IMG/VR virus record: IMGVR_UViG_3300040807_002848
Span: 1-37,149 of that record
DNA length: 37,149 nucleotides
Strand: one strand, 5' to 3'
From: a virus
Shown: positions 3,769 through 36,987 of the stretch, one piece after another
Position numbering within the stretch: position 1 is the first letter of the stretch
How the letters are laid out: every line of letters starts with the position of its first letter
The notes under the pieces: generated by a model
The model's input: only the letters and a program-made list of their open reading frames with translations
The model's database searches: none
Told to the model about the DNA's origin: nothing
Translations under genes and position numbers: made by a program

Positions 3769-3772
3769 ACGC

Positions 3773-4369: not shown

Positions 4370-4394
4370 GCCCCAGTCTCACCCAGTCTCGAAG

Positions 4395-4424
4395 AAGCCG
4401 CGCTCGAAAGGGCGCGGCTTTTTT
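4395..4424 (+). terminator. Intrinsic terminator after the methyltransferase-like gene
   Basis: Stem AAGCCGCGC (4395-4403) pairs with GCGCGGCTT (4412-4420), followed by T's to 4424. The loop TCGAAAGG and the flanks match the terminator at 636-665 while the inner stem bases differ in compensating pairs. Confidence 0.9.
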
Positions 4425-4454
4425 CGTGCGCGTTGACATCGCCGACTTCGGCGA

Positions 4455-4709: not shown

Positions 4710-4712
4710 AGC

Positions 4713-6152: not shown

Positions 6153-6181
6153 TTTTTTACGCACAACACCGCACGCACAAC

Positions 6182-6859: not shown

Positions 6860-6869
6860 CACGGTGAGC
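6856..6869 (+). repeat. 14-bp start-associated repeat, copy 1
   Basis: TTGACACGGTGAGC lies 20 nt before the protease ATG (6876). Its TGA is the stop codon of the upstream gene. An identical 14-mer occurs inside the protease gene at 7723-7736, before the presumed scaffold start. Confidence 0.8.
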
Positions 6870-6875
6870 TTGTCG

Positions 6876-8297
6876 ATGAAAGACAAGCTCGAATTTTTCA
6901 AACGCCCCTGGGCAATCACTCGTGACGCCTTCGAGATTCTCGCTGGTTACGACTTCGACCGATGCGAAGATTCGCCCGCGCTCGCCGAAGTGAGTCTCGA
7001 AGAATTCAACGAGAAGCTCGAAGTCGATGAGCTCAACGGTATTGCGAAGCTCGACATCTCGGGCCCGCTCATGCAAAACCCCTCGCTTCTCGCGCGCTTT
7101 TTCATGGGTGCCGCCGACCTAGTGCGAATCGAGAAGCTCATTCGCTCGGCGAAAAGCAACCCCGACGTGCGGGCTCTCGTGCTTAACATGAACACCCCAG
7201 GCGGCACCGTCACCGGCACGCCCGAAGTCGGCAATGCCGTCGCCGACTTCGTCAAGAGCGGCAAGCCCGCTTACGTCTTCTCGAATGGGCTCGTCGCATC
7301 GGCGGGCTATTGGATCGCGGCGCCAGCAACCGAGCTCGTCGGCACCGAGTCTTCTCGATGGGGAAGCGTCGGCGTCATTCGCCCTCACGTTGACTTGAGC
7401 GAAGCCCGTCGGCAAGCGGGCATCAAGGTCGAGCTATTCACGAGCGGCAAGCACAAAGCGGCGGGCGCATTCGCAACCTCTCTCACCGAAGAGCAACGCG
7501 AAGAAATCAAAGCCGAAGTCGAGAGGCTCGGCGCGAAATTCCGCGAGCACGTCAAAGAGTATCGCCCCGACATCGACGACGAAGACCTTGAAGCGCTCGT
7601 TTACTACGCCGACGACGCGAAAGCGAAAGGCTACCTCGACCGCACCGTCGCGAATTACGACGAATTTATTGCGGGCATCATCAAGAAGCACGGTGCGGAT
7701 TCCCTAGGCACCGCCGCTCAAGTTGACACGGTGAGCACGGGTGAAGATCAAGGCGACCTCGCCGATTCCGAAACCATGAAAAACGAAACCGACAACACCG
7801 AACACGACGACGAGCTCGACACGGGCGCCGAAGTCGAAGGCGAAGTCGAGGACACCGCAAGCGAAGGCGAGGGCGCACCCGAGGGCGCGACCGATTCCGC
7901 CGACACGAGCGACGACTCAACCGCCGAAGACATCGCGACCGAGAGCGAAGCCGCCGACACCGAAGACGAAGTCGAGCTCACCGAGAGCGAAGACGTCACC
8001 CCCGACGTCGCTCTAGCGAATGCGCTCAACCGAATCGAAGTGCTCGAAGGTAAGCTCGAAGACTTCGACGCGAAAGTCGATGAAGCCGCCGCAAAGAAGG
8101 CGGCTCGATTTGCCGCCGAAGCCTCGACCGACGCCGCCGACGTCACGACCGAAGGCGACGCAACCGCAACCGAAGAATCTCGCTTTTCTTCCATGAGCTC
8201 ATCTGAGCTATGGGCTGAATATGAGAAGATTCGCGGCGCGAGCGGCGACGCAAAGGCAAGCGAATTTTACAAGAAGCATATCGAAGGGCGCGGATAA
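6876..8297 (+). CDS. S49 (SppA/gpC-like) prohead protease with scaffold tail
   Basis: A 473-residue maturation protease and scaffold, like lambda C. The nucleophile is Ser142 in NGLVASAGYW. The catalytic Lys is probably Lys194 in SGKHKAAG. NTPGG near 106-110 lies in the oxyanion-hole region. After residue about 280 the protein becomes very acidic and repetitive (Glu/Asp/Thr/Ala, residues 300-410), then a coiled coil and a short basic C-terminus, as expected for a scaffold that binds the coat protein. The ATG at 6876 is preferred over an earlier ATG at 6729 because that extension overlaps the upstream gene in another frame and the TTGACA element fits 6876. Confidence 0.92.
   Translation: MKDKLEFFKRPWAITRDAFEILAGYDFDRCEDSPALAEVSLEEFNEKLEVDELNGIAKLDISGPLMQNPSLLARFFMGAADLVRIEKLIRSAKSNPDVRALVLNMNTPGGTVTGTPEVGNAVADFVKSGKPAYVFSNGLVASAGYWIAAPATELVGTESSRWGSVGVIRPHVDLSEARRQAGIKVELFTSGKHKAAGAFATSLTEEQREEIKAEVERLGAKFREHVKEYRPDIDDEDLEALVYYADDAKAKGYLDRTVANYDEFIAGIIKKHGADSLGTAAQVDTVSTGEDQGDLADSETMKNETDNTEHDDELDTGAEVEGEVEDTASEGEGAPEGATDSADTSDDSTAEDIATESEAADTEDEVELTESEDVTPDVALANALNRIEVLEGKLEDFDAKVDEAAAKKAARFAAEASTDAADVTTEGDATATEESRFSSMSSSELWAEYEKIRGASGDAKASEFYKKHIEGRG
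7723..7736 (+). repeat. 14-bp start-associated repeat, copy 2 (inside a gene)
   Basis: TTGACACGGTGAGC repeats exactly the element before the protease start, but lies within the protease reading frame (coding V-D-T-V-S). The next in-frame ATG is at 7776, 53 nt from its first base, and begins the scaffold-like part. This suggests that the element marks a second translation start. Confidence 0.7.
7776..8297 (+). CDS. Nested scaffold protein (in-frame internal start)
   Basis: Starting at Met301 of the protease frame gives a 173-residue acidic protein that contains only the scaffold part, in the manner of lambda Nu3 within C. The ATG is followed by an A-rich start (MKNETDNTEHDDELD), which favours initiation. 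A 14-mer identical to the one before the protease start lies 40 nt upstream of it. The product would be made in excess over the protease and removed from proheads. There is no proof that it is translated separately. Confidence 0.6.
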   Translation: MKNETDNTEHDDELDTGAEVEGEVEDTASEGEGAPEGATDSADTSDDSTAEDIATESEAADTEDEVELTESEDVTPDVALANALNRIEVLEGKLEDFDAKVDEAAAKKAARFAAEASTDAADVTTEGDATATEESRFSSMSSSELWAEYEKIRGASGDAKASEFYKKHIEGRG

Positions 8298-8305
8298 TCG
8301 CGCCC
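8286..8305 (+). promoter_or_regulatory. Hairpin at the scaffold stop, upstream of the coat gene
   Basis: GGGCGCG (8286-8292) and CGCGCCC (8299-8305) are a perfect 7-bp inverted repeat with a 6-nt loop that contains the scaffold stop codon. No T-run follows, so it is not a standard terminator. It could protect or define the 5' end of a processed coat mRNA. A TATAAT at 8354-8359, 17 nt before the coat ATG, may add a dedicated promoter, though no clear -35 is seen. Confidence 0.45.
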
Positions 8306-8376
8306 CGAGACGCTAACAACCTAAACCTCACAAGATCACAATTTCTTCAATTTTATAATCTCAAACCCCAAAAACA

Positions 8377-9282
8377 ATGGCACAAGATAATTCCGCCCAT
8401 TATATTCACAAGCTCGCCGAGCGCTCGCTTCAATACCTTTCGAGCAATGGCATCGCTTTCTCACGTTTCTCAACAAACCTCGCCGAAGGAGTTAGAGAAA
8501 AAGGTAACACGGTGCGCACTCGCCTCGCTGGCTCTCTCACCGCTCAAGACAAGAGCACCCCTGGCAAGATCGCCAAGCAAGACGCAAATCTCTCCGCTGT
8601 CACCGTAACACTCGACAAGGTCGCCGCCGTCAAGATTGGCGCAAATGACCTTGAGCGCTCTTACTCCGACTTGCAACTCGAAGATGAATTCATCGCACCC
8701 GCGTTTGAAGCTCTCAACGAGCAAGTCATGAGCGACGTGCTCGGACTAGCGACTACAGCAAACGGCTTCGACACAGATCAAACCGACGTAGATGTCACCG
8801 CTTTCACCGCTGACACTATGGCGAATATTGCCCGCAAGTTGAGCGACAACAAAGTGCCTCATGCAAACCGCTCGGCGCTCTTGTCTCCCGCCCTCATCGA
8901 GTCTCTGACAACCGACGGCGCGATTCAGAACGCATCTAGCTTCGGCGACAATAGCGCCGTCCGCGAAGGTCGCGTTGCTCGTGTTAGCGGCATCGACACC
9001 TTTGAATATACGGGAAATATCCCGACTAATTCCGAAAATATGATCGGAATTGTCGCTCACCCCCAGGCGTTCGCAATCGCCGCCCGTGAAATCGCCGAGC
9101 CCGAGCCTGGAACATGGTATGGGCAAGTGCGCTCTGCCGTGGATAGCGTGACGGGCTTGCCTTTTCAAATCCGGCGTTACTATGATACCGAAGACGAAGA
9201 GCAAGTCGTCGAGTGGCAAATTCTCTACGGCGTAGCCGTGGGACAAGTTGCCGCTGGCGTGCGCATCATCGACACCCCATAA
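8377..9282 (+). CDS. Major capsid protein
   Basis: A 301-residue protein directly after the protease/scaffold, the standard place for the coat protein. Length and composition fit an HK97-fold coat. Features include an N-terminal arm, a long helical stretch around residues 85-120 (DLERSYSDLQLEDEFIAPAF) and a beta-rich C-terminal half ending VAVGQVAAGVRIID. Its codon use is more relaxed than that of its neighbours (GCT, AAT, ACA more frequent), often seen in highly expressed genes. The leader is A/T/C-rich with ACCCCAAAAACA just before the ATG and no Shine-Dalgarno. A strong terminator follows. I did not identify the exact family. Confidence 0.85.
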   Translation: MAQDNSAHYIHKLAERSLQYLSSNGIAFSRFSTNLAEGVREKGNTVRTRLAGSLTAQDKSTPGKIAKQDANLSAVTVTLDKVAAVKIGANDLERSYSDLQLEDEFIAPAFEALNEQVMSDVLGLATTANGFDTDQTDVDVTAFTADTMANIARKLSDNKVPHANRSALLSPALIESLTTDGAIQNASSFGDNSAVREGRVARVSGIDTFEYTGNIPTNSENMIGIVAHPQAFAIAAREIAEPEPGTWYGQVRSAVDSVTGLPFQIRRYYDTEDEEQVVEWQILYGVAVGQVAAGVRIIDTP

Positions 9283-9301
9283 GGGTATCGTCAACCCTCT
9301 C

Positions 9302-9341
9302 AAAAAGGGCGGTGGTTGAATAAGCCGCCGCCCTTTTTTTT
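9302..9341 (+). terminator. Strong terminator after the coat gene
   Basis: GGGCGG (9307-9312) pairs with CCGCCC (9328-9333). Flanking A's pair with T's, and an 8-base T-run ends the element. It should limit read-through into the tail genes and keep coat transcripts abundant. Confidence 0.9.
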
Positions 9342-9377
9342 GCTTAGAAAAACACCGCAACACAACCCCTCATCATC

Positions 9378-9866
9378 ATGCAGAATATTAAGACTCACAT
9401 CGTTGTCGCCATCAATGGCGAATCGAAACATGAAGCCGATTTCAAAGTCATTCACATCGGCACCGACCGACGCAAAGCTCGCGAAATTTACCTCGCCAAC
9501 ATGGATAACACCGACTTCGACTTCGTCGGTATGAGCACGCTTGCGGGCTTCAAATCTCGCGCCCGCCCGAAGATTGACGTCGAGACTCGCAAGTCTATTG
9601 CCGCATCACAAGCGAAGAAGCAAGAAGAAGTCATCAAGTCGAAAGCGGCAAAGGCGAAGGCGGCAAAAGAAGCTCTAGGTGAAGCCGCTATCAAGGCTGA
9701 AGCCGAGGAAGAAGCCGCTCGCGAAAAGCTCGACAAGCTCGTCAAGAAGAGCGGCGCATCGGTTGAATCGGACGAGCCCCAGGGCAAGAAGGCGCCCTCG
9801 AAGAAGGCAACATCGAAGAAAAAGAGCGGCAACACCGAAGACGGTGCCGACGCGCTTCTCAAGTAA
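9378..9866 (+). CDS. Hypothetical protein with long Lys/Ala/Glu helix
   Basis: A 162-residue protein. Residues 1-60 look like a small alpha/beta domain (KTHIVVAINGESKHEADFKV). Residues 65-130 form a charged coiled coil rich in Ala, Lys and Glu, and the tail is Lys/Ser-rich. Position after the coat gene suggests a head decoration, head-tail or DNA-binding role, but the sequence does not decide. The leader is A/C-rich (CGCAACACAACCCC) and no Shine-Dalgarno is present. It forms its own unit, flanked by terminators at 9302-9341 and 9890-9923. Confidence 0.75.
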   Translation: MQNIKTHIVVAINGESKHEADFKVIHIGTDRRKAREIYLANMDNTDFDFVGMSTLAGFKSRARPKIDVETRKSIAASQAKKQEEVIKSKAAKAKAAKEALGEAAIKAEAEEEAAREKLDKLVKKSGASVESDEPQGKKAPSKKATSKKKSGNTEDGADALLK

Positions 9867-9889
9867 AGCATCCCCCCTCGTGTTGTGCG

Positions 9890-9923
9890 GGCGGCGTCGG
9901 GCTTCGGCTCGGCGCCGCTTTTT
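9890..9923 (+). terminator. Intrinsic terminator
   Basis: GCGGCG (9891-9896) pairs with CGCCGC (9913-9918), followed by five T's. The loop TCGGGCTTCGGCTCGG can itself fold. A TTGACT start element follows 12 nt after the T-run. Confidence 0.8.
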
Positions 9924-9956
9924 CGTGCCCGCACGTTGACTCGGTGCCCTTGAGCA

Positions 9957-10274
9957 ATGGGAAACATCATTCAAGAGATGCTCGCCGAAGACGGCAAGCA
10001 AATTGTCGAAGAGATCGGCGACCGCGTGACGTGGAACGGCTCCGAATTCTCGGCACTCGTCGGCGACCCTGACGTCTCGGTTGACCTCGACCAAGGCGGG
10101 CTCATGCCGACGGGCGACTTCGTCGTCAAGATTCTTCGCGCCGACTTCGGTGCGGGCTCATTTCCCGAAGAAGGCGACGTCGTGACCTTCGAGGGGAAGC
10201 GCTACGTCGTCACACGATCACTCAACAAAGCATCGAGCGCCTGGGTGCGCCTCGACATCGCAACGAACGCATAA
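9957..10274 (+). CDS. Head-tail connector protein (gpFII-like, putative)
   Basis: A 105-residue protein with an N-terminal helix (NIIQEMLAEDGKQIVEEIG) and a beta-rich remainder (GDFVVKILRADF, GDVVTFEGKRYVVTR). This is the usual look of lambda gpFII-type stoppers that attach the tail to the filled head. The ATG lies 21 nt after TTGACT at 9936. It is followed 6 nt later by the gpU-like gene, matching lambda's FII-Z-U order. The call is from fold pattern and synteny. Confidence 0.65.
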   Translation: MGNIIQEMLAEDGKQIVEEIGDRVTWNGSEFSALVGDPDVSVDLDQGGLMPTGDFVVKILRADFGAGSFPEEGDVVTFEGKRYVVTRSLNKASSAWVRLDIATNA

Positions 10275-10280
10275 GACAAG

Positions 10281-10715
10281 ATGAATTCCGAACTTGAAGA
10301 AGGATTAAAGACTTGGCTCGAAGATGAGGGCGTCGCGGTGCCTCTATTCACGGGCTTCACGGGCGACGAGCAACCTACCGACGAGCAAACCGTCACCGTA
10401 TTCACGAGCAACGCCGAGCGCGTCACGGGCCCGCTCTATCGCGCAACCATCAACTTCATCGTCTCGACACCCCCGCACGACGAGAACACGCCCCAGGCGT
10501 CGCTTGCCGATCACCGCGCAACCGTCAACTCGATTCGTGCGCTTCTCGAAGATCACGACGAAACAACCCTCAAGACCTCGCTTGAAGCATCGACGAGCCT
10601 CTTCTTTCATGGCGGCTTCTTGCGGAGCGGCGGCGAGGCGACCATCGAGGGCGGGCGATGGGTAACAACGCTCGACTTCCTTGCGGGCATTGCAACCGAA
10701 GACATCGACGCTTGA
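10281..10715 (+). CDS. Tail terminator / minor tail protein (gpU-like, putative)
   Basis: A 144-residue protein with a helix at each end of an alpha/beta core. LYRATINFIVSTPP (about residues 53-66) is a central strand, followed by the helix HRATVNSIRALLED. This arrangement is typical of gpU-type proteins that cap the tail tube and join it to the head. The ATG is 6 nt after the previous stop with only a weak purine stretch (AAGACAAG) upstream, so translation is probably coupled. Confidence 0.6.
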   Translation: MNSELEEGLKTWLEDEGVAVPLFTGFTGDEQPTDEQTVTVFTSNAERVTGPLYRATINFIVSTPPHDENTPQASLADHRATVNSIRALLEDHDETTLKTSLEASTSLFFHGGFLRSGGEATIEGGRWVTTLDFLAGIATEDIDA

Positions 10716-10757
10716 GTTGACATCGCGGGAAGTGGTGAACGCAACCCCTCTCGATTC

Positions 10758-11078
10758 ATGCCCGCGACTTTCGCCGTCTCCAACATCACGAACCTCACCG
10801 CCCCGACGGGCGGCTATATCAACGAAGCGAGCGTCGATGAGTCGCTCGAAGTCGCCGAAGTGCGCGACGAAAACGGCGACGTCGTCATCGCAAAGCCGAA
10901 GAAGCTCATTACTGTCACCGAAACCATCAAAGGAAAAGGCGACCCCGAAATCTCCGCCGTCACGGCGGGCGGCTTCACCGAAGATACCGTCAAAATTATT
11001 GAGGCGAAGGGCACCGAGTCGCAAGACGACTTCCCCGACTTCGAGATCGTCGGGCGCGTCTTCAAGTCGCTTGCGTAA
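10758..11078 (+). CDS. Tail tube-like protein, first of two paralogues
   Basis: A 106-residue, beta-rich, acidic protein. The stretch TIKGKGDPEISAVTAGG (about residues 55-72) and the following strand-rich end resemble the next gene (SLKGRGDLPSGIAIGTDGG), so the two are probably tandem paralogues. Tail tube or tube-associated roles fit the position before the tail chaperones. TTGACA (10717-10722) is present but 41 nt from the ATG, outside the usual spacing. Confidence 0.55.
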   Translation: MPATFAVSNITNLTAPTGGYINEASVDESLEVAEVRDENGDVVIAKPKKLITVTETIKGKGDPEISAVTAGGFTEDTVKIIEAKGTESQDDFPDFEIVGRVFKSLA

Positions 11079-11117
11079 GGCACATTTTTTTACGCATTAA
11101 TTCAACCCCGTTTCAAC

Positions 11118-11462
11118 ATGCCCGCAAACCTCAACGACGTCGGAATTCAAGCCTCTTCTCTCACACTTCTCGAAACCGTAGATTACTCGAAGAAGCTCGA
11201 AGAAGCCGTCATCATGGATTCCGATTCGAGCTTCGGCGACGCCGAAGCCTTCAACCCGATCATCGAATTTTCCCTCAAGGGGCGCGGCGACTTGCCGAGC
11301 GGCATCGCTATCGGCACCGATGGCGGCGCAAGCGGCGCCGTTGACCTCACCGGCATCAACGACGGCTCGGGCACGCTCATCATCACCAGCGTCAAGCAAT
11401 CCGAGAGCAACACCGACTTTAACGCCTGGGAATGCTCGGGCACTTATTACCCGAGCGCGTAG
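11118..11462 (+). CDS. Major tail tube protein candidate, second paralogue
   Basis: A 114-residue beta-rich protein with the KGRGD motif shared with the preceding gene. It has the A/T/C-rich leader type also used by the coat gene and is followed at once by a terminator, both features of an abundant structural protein. It is therefore the better tube candidate of the two. Typical siphovirus tube proteins are longer (150-250 residues), which keeps confidence moderate. Confidence 0.55.
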   Translation: MPANLNDVGIQASSLTLLETVDYSKKLEEAVIMDSDSSFGDAEAFNPIIEFSLKGRGDLPSGIAIGTDGGASGAVDLTGINDGSGTLIITSVKQSESNTDFNAWECSGTYYPSA

Positions 11463-11481
11463 AGCTAATAATTCAACACGG

Positions 11482-11522
11482 CGCGAGCCTCTCGCCCTCA
11501 CGGGTGACGCTCGCGTTTTTTT
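11482..11522 (+). terminator. Intrinsic terminator after the tail-tube candidate
   Basis: CGCGAGC (11482-11488) pairs with GCTCGCG (11509-11515), followed by seven T's. The 20-nt loop contains a further CCCTCACGGG mini-stem. Confidence 0.85.
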
Positions 11523-11598
11523 CGACATCAACCCGAAGGCAAAGCGGCACGCCTGACAAGAGCCGATAACATCACAACAACACCGATCACAACAGACA

Positions 11599-12042
11599 AT
11601 GAACCGAGGCACTCTTTCTCTCGTGCGCGACGACATCGACCCGCGCCGAAGCACAAACACAACTCTCATCGGCGCCGCACTCGCGGCGGGCGCCGACTTC
11701 GCAAGCTCGAAGGCTCTTCACGACTCAATCGACGAAGAAGGCAAGCGTCAAGTCACCTGGAGCATGAATGGCGACCGACTCATGCGTTTCTCGCCTGACT
11801 TCGACGAAGAAGAAATTGAATTCGCCGAATTCCGCCGCCGCTTCGAGTCGAGCGAATGGTGCGAGGAAAACCCCGACCATCCCATCGCTTTTCTTCGCGC
11901 GTATCGCGATCAAATGAACCGATTGCGCGACAAGTTGCGCACCATGAAGCCGATGGCTCGCGTGAAGAAGGGGCGCCGCGTCGCGCTAATCCCCGCCGAC
12001 ACCCCAGCCGCGAAGCGTCAAGAGATTCTCGGCGAGCTTTGA
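11599..12042 (+). CDS. Hypothetical tail-region protein
   Basis: A 147-residue protein I do not recognise. Its middle is acidic (FSPDFDEEEIEFAEFRRRF, about residues 63-81), followed by a helical basic segment (MNRLRDKLRTMKPMARVKKG). It lies between the tube candidates and the frameshifted chaperones. The leader is an unstructured CAA/ACA repeat (ACATCACAACAACACCG) without Shine-Dalgarno. A role in tail assembly is possible by position only. Confidence 0.7.
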   Translation: MNRGTLSLVRDDIDPRRSTNTTLIGAALAAGADFASSKALHDSIDEEGKRQVTWSMNGDRLMRFSPDFDEEEIEFAEFRRRFESSEWCEENPDHPIAFLRAYRDQMNRLRDKLRTMKPMARVKKGRRVALIPADTPAAKRQEILGEL

Positions 12043-12085
12043 GCCGGCGAGTGCGCACAAAAACACGCAACACCCCTATCACCCC

Positions 12086-12520
12086 ATGAGCGAAAAAGAC
12101 AACGCAAAGAAGGCTCGCGAAGCCGCACTCACGAAAGGCTTTCACGGTGAAGGCACCGCGAAGCTCGCGGGGCACGAGCTTCGCCCTTTCACCTTCGGCT
12201 CTTTCACCTTATGCCGTCGGCTTGGGCTTACCCTCTTTACGCAAGACGGTGCCGCCGACGAGCTCGAAGAAGATGAAGTCATGCGGCAACTTGCCGCTTT
12301 TTTCTGGCTTCAATCGCAACCCGTCGAAAGCGTGCTTCAAGCGGTGCGGGAAGGCACCGCCGAGCTCTCAATCGACGCCTTTCAATTCGAGATACCCGTG
12401 CACGCATTGCCCGCGATTATGCGGCGCGTCAACGAGCTCTCGAAGCTCGCGAGCGATGCCGCCGTCGAAATCGAAGAGAAGCCCGACTCGAAAGACGACC
12501 CCGACGCGCCAAAAAACTGA
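12086..12520 (+). CDS. Tail assembly chaperone, short form (gpG-like)
   Basis: A 144-residue protein with charged ends and a helical centre (ELRPFTFGSFTLCRRLGL, then helices to about residue 125). Its last sense codons form the slippery sequence A AAA AAC directly before the TGA stop. This matches the lambda gpG/gpGT arrangement, in which the short form coats the tape measure and the frameshifted form recruits tube subunits. The leader is A/C-rich (ACACGCAACACCCC). The call rests mainly on the frameshift site and its position before the tape measure. Confidence 0.8.
   Translation: MSEKDNAKKAREAALTKGFHGEGTAKLAGHELRPFTFGSFTLCRRLGLTLFTQDGAADELEEDEVMRQLAAFFWLQSQPVESVLQAVREGTAELSIDAFQFEIPVHALPAIMRRVNELSKLASDAAVEIEEKPDSKDDPDAPKN
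12511..12517 (+). promoter_or_regulatory. -1 ribosomal frameshift slippery heptamer
   Basis: A AAA AAC is in the correct phase (codons CCA AAA AAC TGA) and abuts the stop. Slipping back one base continues as CTG ATC GAG into an open frame up to 12783. A stop directly after the heptamer favours pausing; no strong downstream pseudoknot is obvious by eye. Confidence 0.88.
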
Positions 12521-12783
12521 TCGAGCCCTCTTTCGAGGCGAGCTTCGTGTTTGCACTCGGGAAAGGGCGCGTTGACCGAGACTTCGAGCAATGGGTGCTT
12601 TGGGAATTACCCCTCACCCGAGCTCTTCAATACTATCACGCCGCCCTTCGATACGCGGGCGAGTGGACGGTGCCCGTTGACCTCATCGGCAACGAAGAGA
12701 AGCTCGAAGCCGCAAATCGAGCCATCGAAAAAGCCGTTACCGAAGACACCGAAGAGAGCGACGAATTTGACGAGCTCTTTTAG
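12517..12783 (+). CDS. Frameshift extension of the tail chaperone (GT form)
   Basis: This is the -1 frame extension (LIEPSFEASFVFALGKG and onward, 88 residues) translated as a fusion with the 144 residues encoded from 12086, giving about 232 residues. It contains an aromatic, helical segment (EQWVLWELPLTRALQYYHAA) typical of T-domain relatives and an acidic end. A GTG at 12547 could start it separately, but the perfect heptamer makes fusion far more likely. It stops 6 nt before the next gene. Confidence 0.82.
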   Translation: MIEPSFEASFVFALGKGRVDRDFEQWVLWELPLTRALQYYHAALRYAGEWTVPVDLIGNEEKLEAANRAIEKAVTEDTEESDEFDELF

Positions 12784-12789
12784 ATAAGG

Positions 12790-13239
12790 ATGAGAAAAGA
12801 GCCCCTTGCGCTTGAGCGACATCAAAACGGCACCCTTCCGACGATATGGGTGACACGATTGCCGAGTGCTCGGCTTTGGATTACGCAAGCCGACTATCTC
12901 GTGCGGGTGCCCGTCGAAGGTGAGCTCGTCGAGATTCTCGTGCCGCTCGGTTTTCGATTCGACATCGCGAGCGTGCCGCGCGTAGCATGGTCGATAATTG
13001 CACCCTTCGAGCTCTCGCTCGCGGCGCCCCTAGCTCACGACTTCCTCTATGAGCGCAACGGGCGCCTCGACGGTCGAGAGAAGCCGCTCACCCGCAAGGA
13101 ATCCGACGACGCCTTTCTCTACCTCATGAGGCGCGAGGGCATCCCCGAGCTTCGTGCTCGCATCGCGCACGCCGCCGTGAGAGTCGGCGGCGGGCGAGCT
13201 TGGCGGCGCTACCTTCGGGGAAAAGGTCGCCGAAATTGA
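12790..13239 (+). CDS. DUF1353 family protein
   Basis: A 149-residue protein with the DUF1353 hallmark GFRFDIASVPRVAWSIIAP (about residues 54-72) followed by AAPLAHDFLYERNG and a C-terminal helix pair. The conserved D, H and D residues suggest a metal-binding or peptidase-like site, but its role is unknown. DUF1353 proteins are common in siphovirus tail regions. The ATG follows the preceding stop by 6 nt with GATAAGG upstream, one of the few purine-rich sites here. Confidence 0.8.
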   Translation: MRKEPLALERHQNGTLPTIWVTRLPSARLWITQADYLVRVPVEGELVEILVPLGFRFDIASVPRVAWSIIAPFELSLAAPLAHDFLYERNGRLDGREKPLTRKESDDAFLYLMRREGIPELRARIAHAAVRVGGGRAWRRYLRGKGRRN

Positions 13240-13982: not shown

Positions 13983-14010
13983 TTGCATCACAAGGGGCTT
14001 GTGATAATCT
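13983..14010 (+). promoter_or_regulatory. Promoter with perfect family A operator
   Basis: TTGCAT (13983-13988), the perfect palindrome CACAAGGGGCTTGTG (13989-14003) and TAATCT (14005-14010). The ATG is at 14020, 9 nt later. The A-rich flank (13962-13980) closely resembles the one before the first promoter at 81-101. This is the best copy of the motif. Confidence 0.78.
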
Positions 14011-14256: not shown

Positions 14257-14280
14257 TTATTCACCCAGGCTCACCCCGAG

Positions 14281-14310
14281 AAGCCCGAGCCTCACCGCTC
14301 GGGCTTCTTC
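14281..14310 (+). terminator. Intrinsic terminator before the tape measure gene
   Basis: AAGCCCGAG (14281-14289) pairs with CTCGGGCTT (14298-14306), loop CCTCACCG, followed by CTTCG with a weak T-run. It is nearly identical to the terminator at 20386-20418. In both cases a TTGACA start element follows. Confidence 0.75.
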
Positions 14311-14335
14311 GTGCTTTGACATCGCGCGCTTCTCG

Positions 14336-16075
14336 ATGGCGAGCGAAATCAATGCCGAGCTCATGCTCGAAATCAAGGGCTTCTTGGAAGGAATCAAGAA
14401 GTCGCAAAACGCCGCGACGAAATTCTCGAAGAAAGGGAAGGACGGCGCGAGCGGTTGGGGCTCGGCTCTCAAGAAGGTCGCGGGCGGGCTCGTTGCCGTC
14501 GGCAAGGCGGCACTCAAAGCCGCCGCCGTAGTCGCTGGCATCGGCACCGCCGTCGCGGGTGCGATGGCGGCGGGGCTCAAGAACGCCCTCGATATGGGCG
14601 GGCGGTTTTCAGACCTCGCCGCGCAAATGGGAACGACGGCGGGACGGGCGCGCGTGCTCGCGGCGGCATTCGAGAACAACGGAATGCAAGCCGACGAGAC
14701 GGCGAAGACCGTCAACAAAATGCAAAAGAGCTTCAACGATGCGGCGAATGGCTTGAGCACCGCGAAGCGCGCCTTCGGTGAGCTCGGGCTCGACCCCGAG
14801 GCGCTCATGACGAGCGACCCCGTTGACGCCTTTCACACTATCATCGACGCACTCGGCGGAATCGAGAGCGAATCAAAGCGCACCGCCGTCGCGATGGATA
14901 TTTTCGGGCGCTCGGGCGGCAAGCTCAACGTGCTCTTGAAGGATAAAGACGCGATGAAAAATGCGCGCAACCTCATCGGCGGGCAAGCCGACCTTCTCGA
15001 CGAGCACGCCGAGAAATTCGACCGCGCGAGCGACGTGCTCAATCAAGTCAAAACGAAGGTGCAAGGCTTCTTTGTTGGCGTCGGCGCGAAGATCATCGAG
15101 CAAATCATGCCCGCAATTGAGGCACTCAACAAGCTCGACCTCACCGGCATCGGTGAGCGCTTCGGCGCCGCACTCTCGGGCGCCCTCGACATTGCAATCG
15201 CCATCTTCAAGACTTTTCGCTCGATGAGCCTCGCCGAAGTCGCGAAGCTCTTCGGCGTTGCTATTCGCCTGGGTATCTCGAAGGCAATCAATTTTTTCTG
15301 GTCGGGCTTTCAAGCCGTGATTTCCGCTGTCATTACTTATTTTGTTGAAGGCTTCAAGAATATCATTGCTTTCGTCGGCATTCTTGCAACCGCCGATTTC
15401 TGGAAAGGAATGCTCAACGCATTCGTCGGCATATCGAAGGTTTTCGTCGGGCTTCTCTTGCAAGGCGCGGGCAAGCTCGTCAACATGCTTCGCGACGCAA
15501 TGGGCCCGCTCGGCGACGAGCTTATCGGTGACTCTGGCGACGCGCTCAACGAAGTCGGCGAAGGGCTTGTCGATGAAAGTGAAGATGATTTTGCGAATGC
15601 GGGCAAAAATCTCGAACCCGCACTCGATAAGGTCGGCGAGAGAATGCGCGAGACGGGGCGAGCCGTCGCTCAAGGCTTTCAACGCGGGCTCGCGAATGCA
15701 ACCGACATCATCGACACAAGCGGCGACGAAGCCGTGATGGCGGACATCGCGGCGCAAGTCGCAAACACCGCCGCCGCCATCAAGAGCGACCGAGAAAAGA
15801 AGAAAGCCGAGACGGGCGCCGCCGAAGATGAGGAAGGTAGCGGCACGACTGACTCGGGCTTGCCGAAGCTCAACTCTCGACTCGCGGGCGCGATCAACAC
15901 TATTGCGGGAAGAAGCGCGAATGCCGTCATCGCCGCCGAGGCATCGAAGACGAGCGCCAACACCGAGCGCACGGCGAAAGCCGCCGAGGAAATCGCGAAG
16001 AATACCGCGAACAATGGCGGCAACCCTAGACCGAAGCCGACGCCCGTATCGAATATGGGTGGAAAATTCGGTTGA
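14336..16075 (+). CDS. Tail tape measure protein
   Basis: A 579-residue protein that sets tail length and is later ejected with DNA. Its length would predict a short siphovirus tail (below 100 nm using the usual 0.15 nm per residue). Hydrophobic segments lie near residues 40-80 (Ala/Gly/Val-rich) and about 310-380, interrupted by helical coiled-coil stretches. The C-terminal 130 residues are Ala/Lys/Glu-rich and low-complexity, perhaps interacting with chaperones. The ATG is 20 nt after TTGACA (14316-14321). Position after the frameshifted chaperones supports the call. Confidence 0.9.
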   Translation: MASEINAELMLEIKGFLEGIKKSQNAATKFSKKGKDGASGWGSALKKVAGGLVAVGKAALKAAAVVAGIGTAVAGAMAAGLKNALDMGGRFSDLAAQMGTTAGRARVLAAAFENNGMQADETAKTVNKMQKSFNDAANGLSTAKRAFGELGLDPEALMTSDPVDAFHTIIDALGGIESESKRTAVAMDIFGRSGGKLNVLLKDKDAMKNARNLIGGQADLLDEHAEKFDRASDVLNQVKTKVQGFFVGVGAKIIEQIMPAIEALNKLDLTGIGERFGAALSGALDIAIAIFKTFRSMSLAEVAKLFGVAIRLGISKAINFFWSGFQAVISAVITYFVEGFKNIIAFVGILATADFWKGMLNAFVGISKVFVGLLLQGAGKLVNMLRDAMGPLGDELIGDSGDALNEVGEGLVDESEDDFANAGKNLEPALDKVGERMRETGRAVAQGFQRGLANATDIIDTSGDEAVMADIAAQVANTAAAIKSDREKKKAETGAAEDEEGSGTTDSGLPKLNSRLAGAINTIAGRSANAVIAAEASKTSANTERTAKAAEEIAKNTANNGGNPRPKPTPVSNMGGKFG

Positions 16076-18761: not shown

Positions 18762-18779
18762 TGCGCACTTTTATGCGCT
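18762..18779. promoter_or_regulatory. Family B operator, distal helicase site
   Basis: TGCGCA-CTTTTA-TGCGCT, with 12-bp period. The first 17 bases match the site at 18792-18808 exactly, so the two are direct repeats 30 bp apart. Confidence 0.72.
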
Positions 18780-18785
18780 TTTTTC

Positions 18786-18821
18786 TTGAAGTGCGCACTT
18801 TTATGCGCATTATTGTGCGCA
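18786..18821 (+). promoter_or_regulatory. Helicase promoter with triple family B operator
   Basis: TTGAAG (18786-18791) and ATTATT (18809-18814) are 17 bp apart, and the ATG at 18821 is 6 nt after the -10. Three TGCGCA units at 18792, 18804 and 18816 have an exact 12-bp period. The last overlaps the start codon. A protein bound here would cover the whole promoter. Confidence 0.7.
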
Positions 18822-20378: not shown

Positions 20379-20385
20379 CCCTAAG

Positions 20386-20420
20386 AAGCCCGAGCCTCAC
20401 CGCTCGGGCTTCTTCTTTTT
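20386..20420 (+). terminator. Intrinsic terminator after the helicase
   Basis: AAGCCCGAG (20386-20394) pairs with CTCGGGCTT (20403-20411), loop CCTCACCG, then CTTCTTTTT. Stem and loop are identical to the terminator at 14281-14306. Its T-run merges into the TTGACA element. Confidence 0.85.
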
Positions 20421-20445
20421 GACACGACGAGCTTGTCGATCACCT

Positions 20446-31307: not shown

Positions 31308-31323
31308 TGCGCATTTTAATGCG
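31308..31323. promoter_or_regulatory. Family B operator upstream of a family A promoter
   Basis: TGCGCA-TTTTAA-TGCG with 12-bp period, about 8 bp before the -35 of the next promoter. It is the only place where a clear B site adjoins an A site, so the gene at 31366 may respond to both regulators. Confidence 0.55.
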
Positions 31324-31331
31324 ATTTATGC

Positions 31332-31359
31332 TTGCATCGCAAGGGGCTTGTTGTAAATT
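31332..31359 (+). promoter_or_regulatory. Promoter with family A operator
   Basis: TTGCAT (31332-31337), operator CGCAAGGGGCTTGTT (31338-31352) and TAAATT (31354-31359), spacer 16 bp. The ATG at 31366 is 6 nt after the -10. Confidence 0.72.
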
Positions 31360-31986: not shown

Positions 31987-32014
31987 TTGCATAGCAAGCC
32001 CCTTGTGATAATCT
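31987..32014 (+). promoter_or_regulatory. Promoter with family A operator
   Basis: TTGCAT (31987-31992), operator AGCAAGCCCCTTGTG (31993-32007) and TAATCT (32009-32014), spacer 16 bp. The ATG at 32021 is 6 nt after the -10. An A/T-rich stretch precedes it. Confidence 0.72.
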
Positions 32015-32290: not shown

Positions 32291-32316
32291 AGCCGCTCAC
32301 GCCGAGCGGCTTTTTT
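32291..32316. terminator. Terminator between convergent genes
   Basis: AGCCGCTC (32291-32298) pairs with GAGCGGCT (32304-32311), followed by T's on the + strand. The right arm lies in the end of the recombinase reading frame. Confidence 0.85.
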
Positions 32317-33805
32317 CGTCGGGAAACGGCACGACGCTCTCGGGGAAGAAGAAGCGCGCTTCGCCGCCCTCTTCGCAATACTCGAAGAGCTCGCCCGTGA
32401 GCGTCTCCACCGAGAAGCGCCGCTCATTCGCATCGACGACGATGCGCTTGACGAGAGAGCGCACATTTTCGCCGAGGCGCTCGTCGTCGTCAATGGCGAT
32501 AAACTCACCCCCGCCGACCTGGGGCTCGGCTTCGGCGCCGAGAAGCCGCTCTTCGAGGGCGGCGCGCTCGTCACCCAGGCGCCGAAGCTCTTGCTCGATG
32601 GCTTCGACGTAGCCATTCGCGAGCACCCGCGCGAGATTGCCCTCTTTCGCTCTCACGGCTTCAATCTCAAGCCGCAAGCGCTCGGCGGCTCTCGTGTCAT
32701 GCGAGCGCTCAACGCGGCGCTCTTGAGCCTTCTCGAAGAGCAAGGCGAAGAGCGCTTTGAATTCGTCGTAATTCCATGACTTCGACTTCTTGCTCGAAAT
32801 CTTCGTCGAATTCGCGCGAAGGTAAGAGTAAGTGCGCCCGCTTCGCCCTCGACACTTTTGCGCGTGCAAGGGCTCGCCGTCGGGCGTGAAGATGAGCCCA
32901 CGAAAGGCGTTATTCATCGGCGCCTTCCCGCCGCCCCGTTGCCGCTTGTGAGCGGGGCGCATGAGTTGCGCCTTTGCCCATTGCGCGGGCTCGATAATTT
33001 GCGGGTAATATTCGGCAATAGGAGCGCCGACTGGCTCGCGCTTGCCGTCCTTCGTCGCGTGCGGCTGATACTCGCCGAGCACCGCGCGCCCGTCGAGAAG
33101 CCGGCGCACCGTTTGCACACTCCACGACTTGCCCTTGCGCAAGGTCGGCACGCCCTCGTCGTTGAGCCCGCGCACGACCGCGCAAAGCGCTTTACCCTCG
33201 CAAATCTCATCGAAGACGCGCCGCACTATTCTCGCCTTCGTCTCGATGATGCGCCAACTGTCACCCGAGCGCTTGAGCCAATTCGGCCCGCGCGTCGTCA
33301 CGACTTCGGTGCGGGCGAGCTCGTGCTTTCGTTCCCAGGCGGCACGCACCCGCTTGCTCTTCGTGAGGCTCTCTTCGTGAGCCCGCATGAGAATCGTGAT
33401 TGAAACGATGAGCTTCGTCGGCTCGGCGTTGACGCTCGCGGAATCGTAAACGGCGCCGTCGGCGAGCGTGACGACGTGCACGCCGGCGTCGATGATTCGC
33501 AAGATGAGCGAGACGGCGCGCGTTATCTCGTCGCGCGTGATTCGGTCGAGGCTCTCGACGAGAAGGAAAGAGCCGCTCGGCACCCGCCCGCCTTCGGCGA
33601 GCTTCATGAAAGCGGCGAGAGCACCTTCATGCGCATTTTTGCCGCGAAAGGCGCTCACGCCTAAGTCGGCGAAGTCTTCGACGAGCTCGGCATCATGCCG
33701 CTCGCACCATTCGCGAGCCGCCGCCGTTTGCCGCCGCACCGAGTCGCCGCCCGCCTGGGCGAGCGACGAGAAGCGCGTATAGGAATATGCGAGGGGGCGA
33801 AGCAT
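32297..33805 (-). CDS. Large serine recombinase (phage integrase)
   Basis: A 502-residue site-specific recombinase that would integrate the phage. The N-terminal resolvase domain begins YSYTRFSS, with Ser13 the likely nucleophile, and includes SVRRQ and ESLDRITRDE. A recombinase domain follows at about 165-270 (GLNDEGVPTLRKGKSWSVQT). The zinc-ribbon position (LIFTPDGEPL, then HAQKCRGRSGRTYSYLRA) lacks CxxC pairs, as in a known cysteine-poor subclass. A coiled coil lies near 365-430. Its promoter contains a family B site, and the ATG is 9 nt after the -10. No attP core could be identified by eye. Confidence 0.93.
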   Translation of the reverse strand: MLRPLAYSYTRFSSLAQAGGDSVRRQTAAAREWCERHDAELVEDFADLGVSAFRGKNAHEGALAAFMKLAEGGRVPSGSFLLVESLDRITRDEITRAVSLILRIIDAGVHVVTLADGAVYDSASVNAEPTKLIVSITILMRAHEESLTKSKRVRAAWERKHELARTEVVTTRGPNWLKRSGDSWRIIETKARIVRRVFDEICEGKALCAVVRGLNDEGVPTLRKGKSWSVQTVRRLLDGRAVLGEYQPHATKDGKREPVGAPIAEYYPQIIEPAQWAKAQLMRPAHKRQRGGGKAPMNNAFRGLIFTPDGEPLHAQKCRGRSGRTYSYLRANSTKISSKKSKSWNYDEFKALFALLFEKAQERRVERSHDTRAAERLRLEIEAVRAKEGNLARVLANGYVEAIEQELRRLGDERAALEERLLGAEAEPQVGGGEFIAIDDDERLGENVRSLVKRIVVDANERRFSVETLTGELFEYCEEGGEARFFFPESVVPFPDEKSRSA

Positions 33806-33809
33806 AAGT

Positions 33810-33845
33810 CGAGCATTACAATGCGCATTTTTTTACGGAATGCAA
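33810..33845 (-). promoter_or_regulatory. Recombinase promoter with family B operator
   Basis: Read on the reverse strand: TTGCAT (33845-33840), spacer 19 bp, TGTAAT (33820-33815), then 9 nt to the ATG. TGCGCA-TTGTAA-TGCTCG gives a 12-bp-spaced pair, with a weak third unit (TCCGTA) upstream. This arrangement fits repressed, near-leaderless expression. Confidence 0.62.
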
Positions 33846-33891: not shown

Positions 33892-34140
33892 TTAAACCGA
33901 GCCACTTGAGACGTCGCCGCGCTCATCAGCGACCGCCCTCGCGGCTTCTTCGATGCGAGCTTGCGAGCGCGTCTTTCGCTCGCCTCTCACCGTCTTATTG
34001 TGAGCGTCGAGAAGAGTCTCGACGAGCTCGCTCAAGCTAACACCTTCTTGATCGGCTATAAGCCGAGCCTCTCTAACAACGAGAGAGTCGAGCGTCATGT
34101 TGACTCGGGGCTTCTTGTTTTTGATTTTCGGTCTAGCCAT
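33892..34140 (-). CDS. Ribbon-helix-helix regulator, reverse strand
   Basis: An 82-residue protein. The strand RVNMTLDSLVVREARLIADQ followed by VSLSELVETLLD is a clear MetJ/Arc (ribbon-helix-helix) domain, with a basic N-terminal arm and a charged C-terminal tail. It probably binds DNA as a dimer of dimers. A family B site overlaps its likely -10 (TATAAA, 34205-34200; TTGCGA -35 at 34227-34222), suggesting autoregulation. It is upstream of, and in the same direction as, the recombinase. The start at 34140 is chosen because 14 extra residues upstream would cross a hairpin. Confidence 0.8.
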   Translation of the reverse strand: MARPKIKNKKPRVNMTLDSLVVREARLIADQEGVSLSELVETLLDAHNKTVRGERKTRSQARIEEAARAVADERGDVSSGSV

Positions 34141-34170
34141 TTTATCAGGGTGACAATGTTGAAGATAGGT

Positions 34171-34194
34171 GCACCCGAACAAATAATCGGGTGC
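34171..34194. other. Perfect inverted repeat in the regulator leader
   Basis: GCACCCGA (34171-34178) and TCGGGTGC (34187-34194) are perfect arms around an A/T-rich 8-nt loop. It lies in the presumed 5' leader of the reverse RHH gene and next to a family B site. It may be a second operator or an RNA hairpin that lowers expression. Confidence 0.55.
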
Positions 34195-34209
34195 GCGCTT
34201 TTATACGCA
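34192..34209. promoter_or_regulatory. Family B operator of the reverse RHH gene
   Basis: TGCGCG-CTTTTA-TACGCA, 12-bp period. It overlaps the TATAAA -10 read on the reverse strand. Confidence 0.6.
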
Positions 34210-34301
34210 CTCGAAGCACCTTCGCAAAGCAATCGCTTTTCGTCAATTCCGATTCTCAATCGTGAAGGAAATTTTAATTCTGGAAAAATTGATATTTTCG
34301 C

Positions 34302-34330
34302 TTGAGTCGCGCATTTCGGTGCGCATTTTT
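34302..34330 (+). promoter_or_regulatory. Promoter with family B operator before the second RHH gene
   Basis: TTGAGT (34302-34307), then CGCGCA-TTTCGG-TGCGCA (34308-34325) with 12-bp period, and a weak -10 (ATTTTT, 34325-34330). The ATG at 34337 follows after 6 nt, the same geometry as the helicase promoter. Confidence 0.55.
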
Positions 34331-34336
34331 CCGATC

Positions 34337-34516
34337 ATGGTTTCAAATACAACACCCGACCCCGACAATCAACACAAGGGCAAATTGAGCCTCAAACTCG
34401 ACGCCGCCCTCATCACCGAAGCAAGAAGCAATCTTCGCGGCGACAAAACTCTCGATTCTCTCATTGAGAGTCTTCTTCGCGAAAAAATCGCCGAAAGCAA
34501 GAACCCCTCTCGATGA
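34337..34516 (+). CDS. Ribbon-helix-helix regulator, forward strand
   Basis: A 59-residue protein. The strand GKLSLKLDAALITEARSNL and the helix TLDSLIESLLREKI fit the ribbon-helix-helix fold. It is divergent from the reverse-strand RHH gene, and family B sites lie between them. It may be the repressor, or a Cro-like counterpart, of the family B regulon. The ATG at 34337 is preferred over one at 34262, which would place the operator in the coding sequence. Confidence 0.72.
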   Translation: MVSNTTPDPDNQHKGKLSLKLDAALITEARSNLRGDKTLDSLIESLLREKIAESKNPSR

Positions 34517-34651: not shown

Positions 34652-35725
34652 ATGAAAATCAACATCACTCGCGGGAAGAAAACCCGCCCGCAAAAACTCG
34701 TCATCTATGGGCCAGAAGGCGTCGGCAAGACGACGCTCGCCTCGCAATGCCCGAAGCCTCTCTTCGCTGATTGCGAGGGCGGCACCGATCACATCGACCT
34801 CGCCCGAGTCGAAGTGCACAACATAGCGGAATTCCGCGAGACGTGCCTTTATCTCATTCGCGACAATTCCGAAAACTTCGAGAGCTTCATCGTTGACACC
34901 GCCGACTGGCTCGCCGCTCGCGACGTCGAAGAGATGCTCGGCGAGGACGAGAAAGATTCCGTCGAAGACTACGGTTACGGGAAGGGCTACAAGAAAGCCG
35001 AAGAGCGCTTTCACGAGCTTCTCAAGTTGCTCGACCGCGTGAAGAAGTCGGGCGTGCACGTCATTCTTCTCGCGCACTCGAAAGTCATCAAATTCGAGGA
35101 ACCCGACAAGAGCGGCTCTTACGACCGTTACGAGCTCAAGCTCGAAAAAAAGGTCGCGCCGCTTCTCAAGGAATGGTGCGACGCTCTTCTCTTCCTTAAC
35201 TTCGAGACGCGCATCGTCGAGCGCACGAAGGGGCAAGAAGGCAAGAAGCGCGGCATCGGTGGCACGAAGCGCATCTTGCATTGCGAGCGTGACGCCGCCT
35301 TCGACGCGAAGAATCGGCATGGAATGCCGAAGACGTGCGAAGCGACCGTCGAAGAGCTCAAGCCGATTCTCGGCTTCAAGGGTGACGAGCCCCAGTCGGC
35401 GCCAAAAGTCGAGCCGAACAACGACGCCGAGAAAGCCGAGCAACTCGGCGAAGCTCTCGACCGTCGTGCCGAAGAGGCGAAGCCCGAGCCCGCCGAAGCC
35501 GCCCCGAGTGCCGAGCCCGATGAGCGCGGCGAAAGCATCAACGACGCCTTCGCCGACCTCGTGAATCGCTCGGGCGGGCGCGAAGCCGTTGCGGCTTTTC
35601 TCGAAACCCGCAACAAGGACATCGACGAGCTCGACGGCGCCTATGTTGCCCGCGTGCTCGAAAACTCCGGCGCCTTCACGAAAGCCGTCGCCGAGCACTC
35701 GAAGAAGCTCGCCGCCGCTTCTTGA
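34652..35725 (+). CDS. Sak4-like AAA/RecA-type recombination ATPase
   Basis: A 357-residue protein. Walker A GPEGVGKTT is at residues 20-28. FESFIVDTADW (about 81-91) is Walker B and VHVILLAHSKV near 139 is the sensor strand. It belongs with the phage Sak4/AAA_24 ATPases that act in single-strand annealing recombination. The last 110 residues are Ala/Glu/Pro-rich with a helical end. The leader is a pure A/C track (CAACGACAAACAACAACGC). A TTGACA-N8-CTTG stretch at 34571 lies farther upstream. It is followed by a RecB-like nuclease 1 nt after its stop. Confidence 0.85.
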   Translation: MKINITRGKKTRPQKLVIYGPEGVGKTTLASQCPKPLFADCEGGTDHIDLARVEVHNIAEFRETCLYLIRDNSENFESFIVDTADWLAARDVEEMLGEDEKDSVEDYGYGKGYKKAEERFHELLKLLDRVKKSGVHVILLAHSKVIKFEEPDKSGSYDRYELKLEKKVAPLLKEWCDALLFLNFETRIVERTKGQEGKKRGIGGTKRILHCERDAAFDAKNRHGMPKTCEATVEELKPILGFKGDEPQSAPKVEPNNDAEKAEQLGEALDRRAEEAKPEPAEAAPSAEPDERGESINDAFADLVNRSGGREAVAAFLETRNKDIDELDGAYVARVLENSGAFTKAVAEHSKKLAAAS

Positions 35726-35726
35726 T

Positions 35727-36911
35727 ATGGGTGCCGTCATTCGCACAAGCGCGCTCCCGAAGCTCGCCTCTTGCCCGTGTTTCATGGGCAAGGGCGGCTC
35801 GGCGGGCCCATACGCCGCGCGCGGCACGCTCGCCGACGAAGCCTTTCGACTGGCGAACATGGGCGAGAGGCTCTTCAAGTGCAAATGCGGGCACGCATTC
35901 GACAAGTGCAATCATCGAGGAAATCTTCGCGCCGAATGCCCGCAATGTTCTCTCTCATTCAAGGCACGAGAGCCCGAGAAAATTGACCCGCTCGATGTGC
36001 TCGACGCACGCATCGAGGCAATCGCCGACGAGCACGGCATTCCGTTCAAGCCCGCCCGCAAGGGCGTCGAATGGGCGCTTGAGAAGATGCAAGAGCTTGC
36101 GGGCGAAGGCGTCGAGTGCATCACCGACGAAGCCGAGCTCACCGTTGACGTCGAGGGGCTTGACGCCGACTCGGTTGCCGACGGCAATGCGCCCGACGCG
36201 CTCGTCGGCTTCGACCTCAAGACGGGGAAGGTGAGCAACTACCTTGAGCAAATGGCCGGCTATGCGCTCGGCTTTATGGCGGCAAACTTCGCCGACCGTT
36301 ACACGATGCACTTGCTTTTTTGCGACGCGCAAGAAGTCGTCACGCACGCCTTCACTTATGATGAGGCGCGCAACATCGTGCTCGGCATTCGGGCGAAAGT
36401 GCTCGACCCCGACCGCAAGCCCGTCGTGAATCAACATTGCTCATGGTGCGCCCTCAATGAGACGTGCACCCCCAGGCTCGAAGCCGCTCAACGAGCGCTC
36501 GAATACGCGAACGGGCTCAACGTGCGCGAGGGTATCGGTGAGATTCTCGGCTCACCCTCAAAACTCTCGGCTTTCCTCGATGCGTGCGACGCACTCAAAG
36601 GCTTCGAGAACGTCGCGCAAAACCGCGCAAGGTGGAAGCTCGAAGAGGGTGAAGAGTTGCATGGGTGGGCATTGACGCGCGTGCTCGGCATCGGGCACGT
36701 CACGCCCGCCGCCGCGAAGATGCACACGAAGAAATTGCCGAAGGGGCAAGAGCTCACGCTCGAAAAGCTCTTCGATGCTCTCGGACCTCTCACCCCGTTT
36801 CAATTCAAGAATATCATGAAAGCCGTCGAGAAGCCATTGCCGAAGCGATGGCGCTCGAAGGGGCGCCCCTCGACCTACCTCATGCGGGCGCCGAAAAAGA
36901 AAAAAATTTGA
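35727..36911 (+). CDS. RecB/Cas4-like PD-(D/E)XK nuclease (DUF2800-like)
   Basis: A 394-residue exonuclease for recombination. GFDLKTGKVSNY near residue 161 is the D-x-K motif. LEQMAGYALGFMAANF is the following QxxxY-type helix. Cysteines at ASCPCF (16, 18) and HCSWCALNETC near 240-250 fit an iron-sulfur cluster as in Cas4/AddB. A separate insertion, CKCGHAFDKC and CPQC (about 52-76), looks like a zinc finger. The ATG starts 1 nt after the Sak4-like gene, so both are co-translated. Confidence 0.82.
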   Translation: MGAVIRTSALPKLASCPCFMGKGGSAGPYAARGTLADEAFRLANMGERLFKCKCGHAFDKCNHRGNLRAECPQCSLSFKAREPEKIDPLDVLDARIEAIADEHGIPFKPARKGVEWALEKMQELAGEGVECITDEAELTVDVEGLDADSVADGNAPDALVGFDLKTGKVSNYLEQMAGYALGFMAANFADRYTMHLLFCDAQEVVTHAFTYDEARNIVLGIRAKVLDPDRKPVVNQHCSWCALNETCTPRLEAAQRALEYANGLNVREGIGEILGSPSKLSAFLDACDALKGFENVAQNRARWKLEEGEELHGWALTRVLGIGHVTPAAAKMHTKKLPKGQELTLEKLFDALGPLTPFQFKNIMKAVEKPLPKRWRSKGRPSTYLMRAPKKKKI

Positions 36912-36912: not shown

Positions 36913-36936
36913 TTGAAGCGTGCATTTTAGTGCGCA
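36913..36936 (+). promoter_or_regulatory. Family B-like operator before the last gene
   Basis: TTGAAG followed by CGTGCA-TTTTAG-TGCGCA (36919-36936), 12-bp period. No good -10 follows. The leader then becomes an ACA/CAA repeat up to the ATG at 36988. Confidence 0.5.
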
Positions 36937-36987
36937 CTCTTCGGCTCACCTTACAAAACAACAACCAACAACCAACAACCGAAAAAA

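Follow-up and report, generated by a model that had tools for sequence, protein, structure and literature searches.

A divergent ribbon-helix-helix gene pair and phased TGCGCA boxes in the putative immunity region of a temperate phage

Lysogeny switches of phages are commonly identified through their CI-like HTH repressors, and CI and Cro normally occupy the position between the integrase and the early or recombination operon. In P22, the ribbon-helix-helix (RHH) proteins Mnt and Arc are encoded in a divergent arrangement, with the shorter protein heading the lytic-side operon, and the Arc/Pant operator lies between the -10 and -35 elements of the lytic-side promoter. Mnt (82 aa) and Arc (53 aa) repress the antirepressor gene during lysogeny and lytic growth (PMC7549136), and the Mnt/Arc module is not essential for lysogeny (PMC11016777). 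RelB dimers occupy 12-bp half-sites on relO (PMC2812701); relO is 1 bp longer than the Arc operator, and the operator of an RHH antitoxin is located near the -10 box (PMC3507626). Cluster A mycobacteriophages employ one repressor with many sites across the genome, the stoperators (PMC9283540).

The locus described here is located in IMG/VR record IMGVR_UViG_3300040807_002848, which was analysed over its whole length of 37149 bases (hereafter the window). The window harbors terminase, portal, protease, head, and tail genes, as well as a recombination operon and the gene for a large serine integrase. It shares 99.8% identity across 22.5 kb with a second record, IMGVR_UViG_3300041403_001008 (G001), which also matches the other end of the window with 99.9% identity over 842 bases. 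Owing to this overlap at both ends, each of the two "linear" records is taken to be a fragment. Bases 843-13029 of G001 span from the end of the window to its start, such that the map appears closed at ~49.3 kb, provided that the window and G001 are one phage; the RHH region lies outside G001. The bridging stretch encodes SSB, helicase, primase, and, away from the RHH pair, a ParB-like protein (G001:10293-10919). The host group is probably Verrucomicrobiota, since Akkermansia phages are among the relatives by Sak4; in these phages, "transcriptional repressor" genes are annotated close to the Sak4 gene. Of separate note, near-identical intergenic hairpins occur at 631-670 and 4390-4429 and at 14279-14337 and 20384-20440; T runs follow some of them, and they are likely repeated terminators.

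RHH1 (33892-34140, minus strand, 82 aa) and RHH2 (34337-34516, plus strand, 59 aa) start at 34140 and 34337, respectively, and enclose a gap of 196 bp (34141-34336), as the initial annotation had described. RHH1 lies on the side of the large serine integrase (32297-33805, minus strand; PF00239 2.4e-16, PF07508 7.4e-16, PHROG_95 2.8e-72). RHH2 heads the rightward operon, and the early genes downstream of it (34652-36911, plus strand; AAA_24 3e-46, PHROG_124 5.3e-54, PHROG_69 5.4e-10) comprise a Sak4-like annealing ATPase (34652-35725) and a DUF2800/exonuclease gene (35727-36911). The pair is located between the integrase and an operon for annealing protein, exonuclease, SSB, helicase, and primase. 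With the integrase and the Sak4/exonuclease genes as neighbours, neither a toxin gene nor a ParA/ParM-type gene was recognised adjoining it.

RHH1 belongs to the RHH (MetJ/Arc) superfamily on the basis of both a profile match and its strand-helix-helix layout. It matches DUF6364 at 2.3e-6, above the cut-off, while CcdA (1.8e-4) and an Arc-like PHROG (0.0097) fall below it. The AlphaFold model of the monomer is of modest confidence (pLDDT 72) and places helices at residues 19-32 and 36-74; its fold matches are weak (E 0.2-0.5), including CopG (0.2), Arc (0.4), and ParG. A sequence search of the PDB returned no relative and no match to Arc or Mnt. RHH2 has no Pfam or PHROG match and is assigned to the superfamily solely through its alignment with the RHH1 family, whose HMM it matches at 12.5 bits. 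The proposed recognition strand of RHH1 carries N14 and T16, while that of RHH2 carries S14 and K16 and reads K-L-S-L-K (KLSLKLD) versus N-x-T/Y in the other members. Because of this divergence, the target of RHH2 may differ, and one common box for both proteins is not required.

The initial annotation had placed two "family B" sites in the gap and gave no definition of the family, which is taken here as a pair of TGCGCA boxes with a 12-bp period (TGCGCA-N6-TGCGCA). Two such sites are indeed present. The first, TGCGCGCTTTTATACGCA (34192-34209; TGCGCG-N6-TACGCA, 10/12), covers the -10 predicted for the leftward promoter of RHH1. The second, CGCGCATTTCGGTGCGCA (34308-34325; CGCGCA-N6-TGCGCA, 11/12), is located upstream of RHH2 in the spacer that follows TTGAGT, and a third, weaker box stands beside it at 34332-34337. 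At least two sites at this level are found in 0.02% of dinucleotide shuffles of the gap.

Promoters in both directions had also been proposed. By sequence inspection, the leftward candidate, TTGCGA-16-TATAAA with its -35 at 34221-34226 on the minus strand, is plausible. The rightward candidate has a good -35 (TTGAGT, 34302-34307, plus strand; TTG recurs at such an offset at other sites) and a spacer of 17 but a weak -10 (ATTTTT). A consensus promoter scan yielded one promoter-like site against 0.5 expected, which is not above chance, and detected neither of the two; both are therefore treated as predictions. A perfect inverted repeat of 8 bp does occur at 34171-34194, yet its reading as a functional element is not supported, as 8.75% of shuffles have one. 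An RHH2 operator at this repeat was considered and rejected, given that on inspection the gaps of the other phages lack it and ~9% of shuffles contain such a repeat. The corresponding RNA hairpin is strong (z -4.1) and falls at or near the point where the RHH1 mRNA is predicted to start or, on the plus strand, is terminator-like; it could stabilise the RHH1 mRNA or stop rightward transcription.

Family B sites extend well beyond the gap. Across the whole window, 22 places match at least 10/12 at spacing 6, compared with 1-8 at other spacings; within the 1977 bp of intergenic DNA, the counts are 13 at spacing 6 and 0-2 at each other spacing. The enrichment of the intergenic sites (13 in 1977 bp versus 9 in ~35 kb of coding DNA) has a Fisher p of 8.5e-12 that is post hoc, since the motif was defined on the same window, and the spacing control and the independent phages described below carry the weight instead. 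The sites are dispersed at predicted promoters across the phage and do not form one cluster. A triple-box array (33810/33822; 33810-33839) stands at the integrase promoter, in the interval that separates this gene from RHH1. The sites at 18762, 18792, and 18804 (18762-18821) precede the helicase gene with TTGAG or TTGAAG just upstream, the last two together forming a perfect triple array, and those at 36919 and 36931 (36919-36948) stand after TTGAAG and before an SSB-like gene. Others are found ahead of both a family A promoter and the gene at 31366 (31308-31325), between structural genes (12040/12052; 12040-12069), before the gene at 11118 (a weak 9/12 site, 11079-11096), and directly 3′ of the terminase gene (TGCGGA-N6-TACGCA, 3756-3773). 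The bridging stretch of G001 has further sites at 3443, 7091, 8545/8557, 9144, and 11301. When 15 phage sites were inspected for a TTG before the first box (30 site-orientation tests), it was found at an offset of 6 bp in 6 tests and of 18 bp in 8, i.e., in 14/30, with 0-3 at other offsets. Such placement is as would be expected of a repressor operator.

A second sequence family was also observed, TTGCAT-N2-CAAG-N3-CTTG followed by TAATCT or TAAATT, at 105-123, 13983-14001, 31332-31350, and 31987-32005, as well as at 65, 31613, and G001:7115. CAAGNNNCTTG from this family occurs 7 times against 0.56 expected. It likely represents a second operator or promoter class, and a family B site is sometimes located upstream of it (31308, G001:7091).

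The same layout recurs in phages with no detectable DNA similarity to the window. A scan of IMG/VR with the box pair TGCGCAYTTTNRTGCGCA, which used DNA only and no protein, returned 22 records; one of the 20 that were tested with RHH1 matched. This record, IMGVR_UViG_3300032004_000423 (G016), encodes divergent RHH1 homologues at 770-952 (minus strand) and about 1034-1324 (plus strand), with the triple TGCGCA array TGCGCATATGAATGCGCATGAAAATGCGCA between them and an integrase after the longer RHH gene. A triple-box scan combined with a local HMM search added one more phage, IMGVR_UViG_3300006641_000662 (L213), in which RHH genes at 2663-2905 (minus strand) and 2993-3175 (plus strand) flank sites at 2917, 2956, and 2968. 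Its gene order is that of the window, with different genes: integrase, RHH (80 aa, minus), operators, RHH (60 aa, plus), resolvase, RecT, exonuclease VIII, and helicase. In both phages a divergent pair of RHH1 homologues surrounds a triple TGCGCA array beside an integrase, and the type of that integrase, serine or tyrosine, differs among the three phages.

A protein-first scan arrived at the same two contigs and no others. The RHH1 family is rare, with three viruses in IMG/VR and none in 50,697 phage records. Single-protein scans of IMG/VR with RHH1, RHH2, and Sak4 and a scan of genome contigs with the RHH alignment A2 found nothing, and a scan of genome contigs with the triple box gave no RHH1-family locus among the matches listed. 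Among the ~22,800 ORFs of all fetched loci, none rose above chance beyond the RHH1 family and a weak RHH2. Most other array matches look like coding coincidences, since 62 of the 72 instances of the array fall in reading frames of 150 codons or more. Intergenic-looking TGCGCA arrays in three viral contigs (L196, L198, L178) have no RHH1-family neighbour and were taken as chance.

HMM searches of Verrucomicrobiota genomes revealed further divergent RHH pairs, and two prophages share the layout of a pair beside an integrase. In the first (G438, L266), the pair lies between the integrase and an SSB/helicase/primase set, of which the SSB and helicase are 43-45% identical to those of the present phage (76 and 515 residues) and the primase 33%. 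Its gap harbors TATCCG boxes at an 11-bp period (among the spacings tried, 5 did best, with 6 sites versus 0-2), and its recognition strands, VSLYM and VGVTI, have S/G at position 14, where all RHH1-family members with TGCGCA have N. In the second (G102, L267), the pair adjoins the integrase and a relative of exonuclease VIII, position 14 is N, and TGCGCA boxes are retained: both copies of TTGCGCAA in the 19-kb stretch fall within the RHH gap or border on it. These two prophages, small in number, suggest a code that relates box sequence to recognition strand. More distant chromosomal RHH genes of Verrucomicrobiota are mostly without upstream TGCGCA pairs, which ties the box to the close phage family rather than to RHH genes in general. 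The nearest chromosomal locus (L227) has diverged boxes, TGCGTG, TGCGTA, and TACGAC, at a 12-bp period. Divergent RHH pairs, which may be prophage remnants, were also observed on other Verrucomicrobiota contigs (L227/L243, G149:C12; L235, G357:C11; L248, G477:C28).

The locus shares several features with P22 immI. A longer and a shorter RHH protein are divergently encoded (82/59 aa here, 82/53 in P22), as is also the case in L213 and G016, and the predicted operator is located between the -35 and -10 of the lytic-side promoter. However, immI controls an antirepressor, whereas the pair described here stands beside the integrase and would control the main early operon; its putative operators are genome-wide, and no CI-type primary repressor was found, while P22 has C2. 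The match of RHH1 to an Arc-like PHROG (0.0097) falls short of significant similarity to Arc or Mnt. The box period is 12 bp, in contrast to that of Arc. In its position, the locus resembles a lambda-type immC, with divergent regulators beside the integrase, sites at both predicted promoters, and the second protein heading the early operon. It differs from CI/Cro in that the proteins are RHH instead of HTH and that no protease or RecA-sensing domain was recognised on RHH1. The 12-bp half-sites or period, the dimers side by side (here proposed from the boxes), and a site near the -10 are shared with RelB/relO; unlike RelB and other RHH antitoxins, no toxin partner is recognised, and the putative regulon covers many promoters. 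As with the stoperators of cluster A mycobacteriophages, many sites across the genome would serve one repressor, although in the present phage these sites are symmetric, phased, and placed over predicted promoters, and their putative reader is an RHH protein.

Given the primary position of the pair beside the integrase and the genome-wide sites, RHH1 is proposed as the repressor that reads the TGCGCA boxes and RHH2 as its Arc/Cro-like antagonist. RHH1 dimers would bind side by side on the boxes with 12-bp spacing, in the manner of RelB and Arc dimers on their operators. The box pair at 34308 fills the -35/-10 spacer of the predicted rightward early promoter; RHH1 bound there would thus silence RHH2, the annealing protein, the exonuclease, SSB, helicase, and primase. 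Because the boxes at 34192 lie over the predicted -10 of its own leftward promoter, autoregulation is proposed as well, and the operator copies at promoters of the integrase, helicase, SSB, and further genes would extend control to a genome-wide regulon. RHH2, as the first product of the early promoter, would act as a Cro/Arc-like antagonist that lowers RHH1. The sequences themselves show the gene pair, the phased boxes and where they lie, and the recurrence of the arrangement in other phages; we infer that RHH1 binds these boxes and represses, that RHH2 counteracts it, and that the pair controls lysogeny.

The initial annotation had likened the gap to a lysis-lysogeny switch with two RHH proteins, a layout that the position between integrase and early operon and its recurrence in two phages and two prophages support. 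It had also named a CI-like repressor elsewhere in the genome as the finding that would speak against this. None was found among the genes of the window or in the 12-kb stretch of the 99.8% identical record G001 that closes the map, the only hints of HTH type in the two being an HTH_11 match (0.0078) and a PHROG regulator match (0.0085). A remote HTH repressor among the small orphan ORFs is possible. These many orphan ORFs and weak matches at 0.008 are what favours RHH1/RHH2 being a secondary modulator like immI, with an unrecognised repressor maintaining lysogeny; the P22 Mnt/Arc module is itself secondary, lysogeny without it being possible (PMC11016777). This arrangement is unlikely here, given that no CI-like gene is present in the window or the closing record, that the pair lies directly between integrase and early operon, whereas immI sits inside the late operon, that family searches identified no antirepressor-type gene, and that box sites cover the early and integrase promoters. 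With the roles exchanged, RHH1 would be mainly an Arc-like attenuator of early genes and RHH2 the lysogenic repressor. The roles do not follow from transcriptional direction by itself, and RHH2 may read another target, but RHH2 heads an operon expected to be silent in a lysogen, and the conserved recognition strand is kept in RHH1 only; such an exchange is the least probable of the alternatives.

The boxes themselves could be read otherwise, as part of the promoter, i.e., an extended spacer recognised by RNA polymerase of host or phage origin. Several sites would fit this, having a -35 TTGA immediately ahead of the boxes, yet the boxes at 34192 lie over a -10 in a different register, tandem triples extend past the spacer (18804, 33822), RHH1-family loci are marked by the pattern in phages that share no DNA similarity, and a related prophage has another box in a similar layout, all of which renders a promoter element rather improbable. 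It is very improbable, too, that RHH1 and RHH2 are antitoxin-like or centromere-binding partition proteins instead of phage regulators. RHH partition proteins do bind phased repeats, and RHH1 is close to the antitoxin-like families DUF6364 and CcdA; however, no toxin or ParA/ParM-type neighbour is recognised beside the pair, which is flanked by the integrase and the recombination operon, the boxes are dispersed at promoters instead of clustered in a single centromere, and the ParB-like protein is encoded elsewhere. Two RHH paralogues probably make up the immunity switch of a temperate phage, with the gap as its control region.

The best reading of the locus, inferred from these comparisons, is an RHH-pair switch comparable to P22 Mnt/Arc, yet at the primary immunity position and with genome-wide operators. 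Whether it typifies a family is a matter of even odds: a family of temperate phages of Verrucomicrobiota would use a divergent RHH pair as the sole immunity switch, in which one of the two proteins would silence the entire phage through promoter operators with boxes phased at 11-12 bp, and box and recognition strand would change together, such that the pairs TGCGCA with N14 and TATCCG with S/G14 would define immunity types. As searches for switches usually look to CI-like HTH repressors, phages of this sort would be scored as repressor-less. If a switch of this kind is conserved, its simple and countable operator would make such phages findable from DNA alone and their immunity groups predictable. 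The change in RHH specificity, in which box and strand appear to shift together, would also offer a case suited to direct testing in a phylum with little-studied phages.
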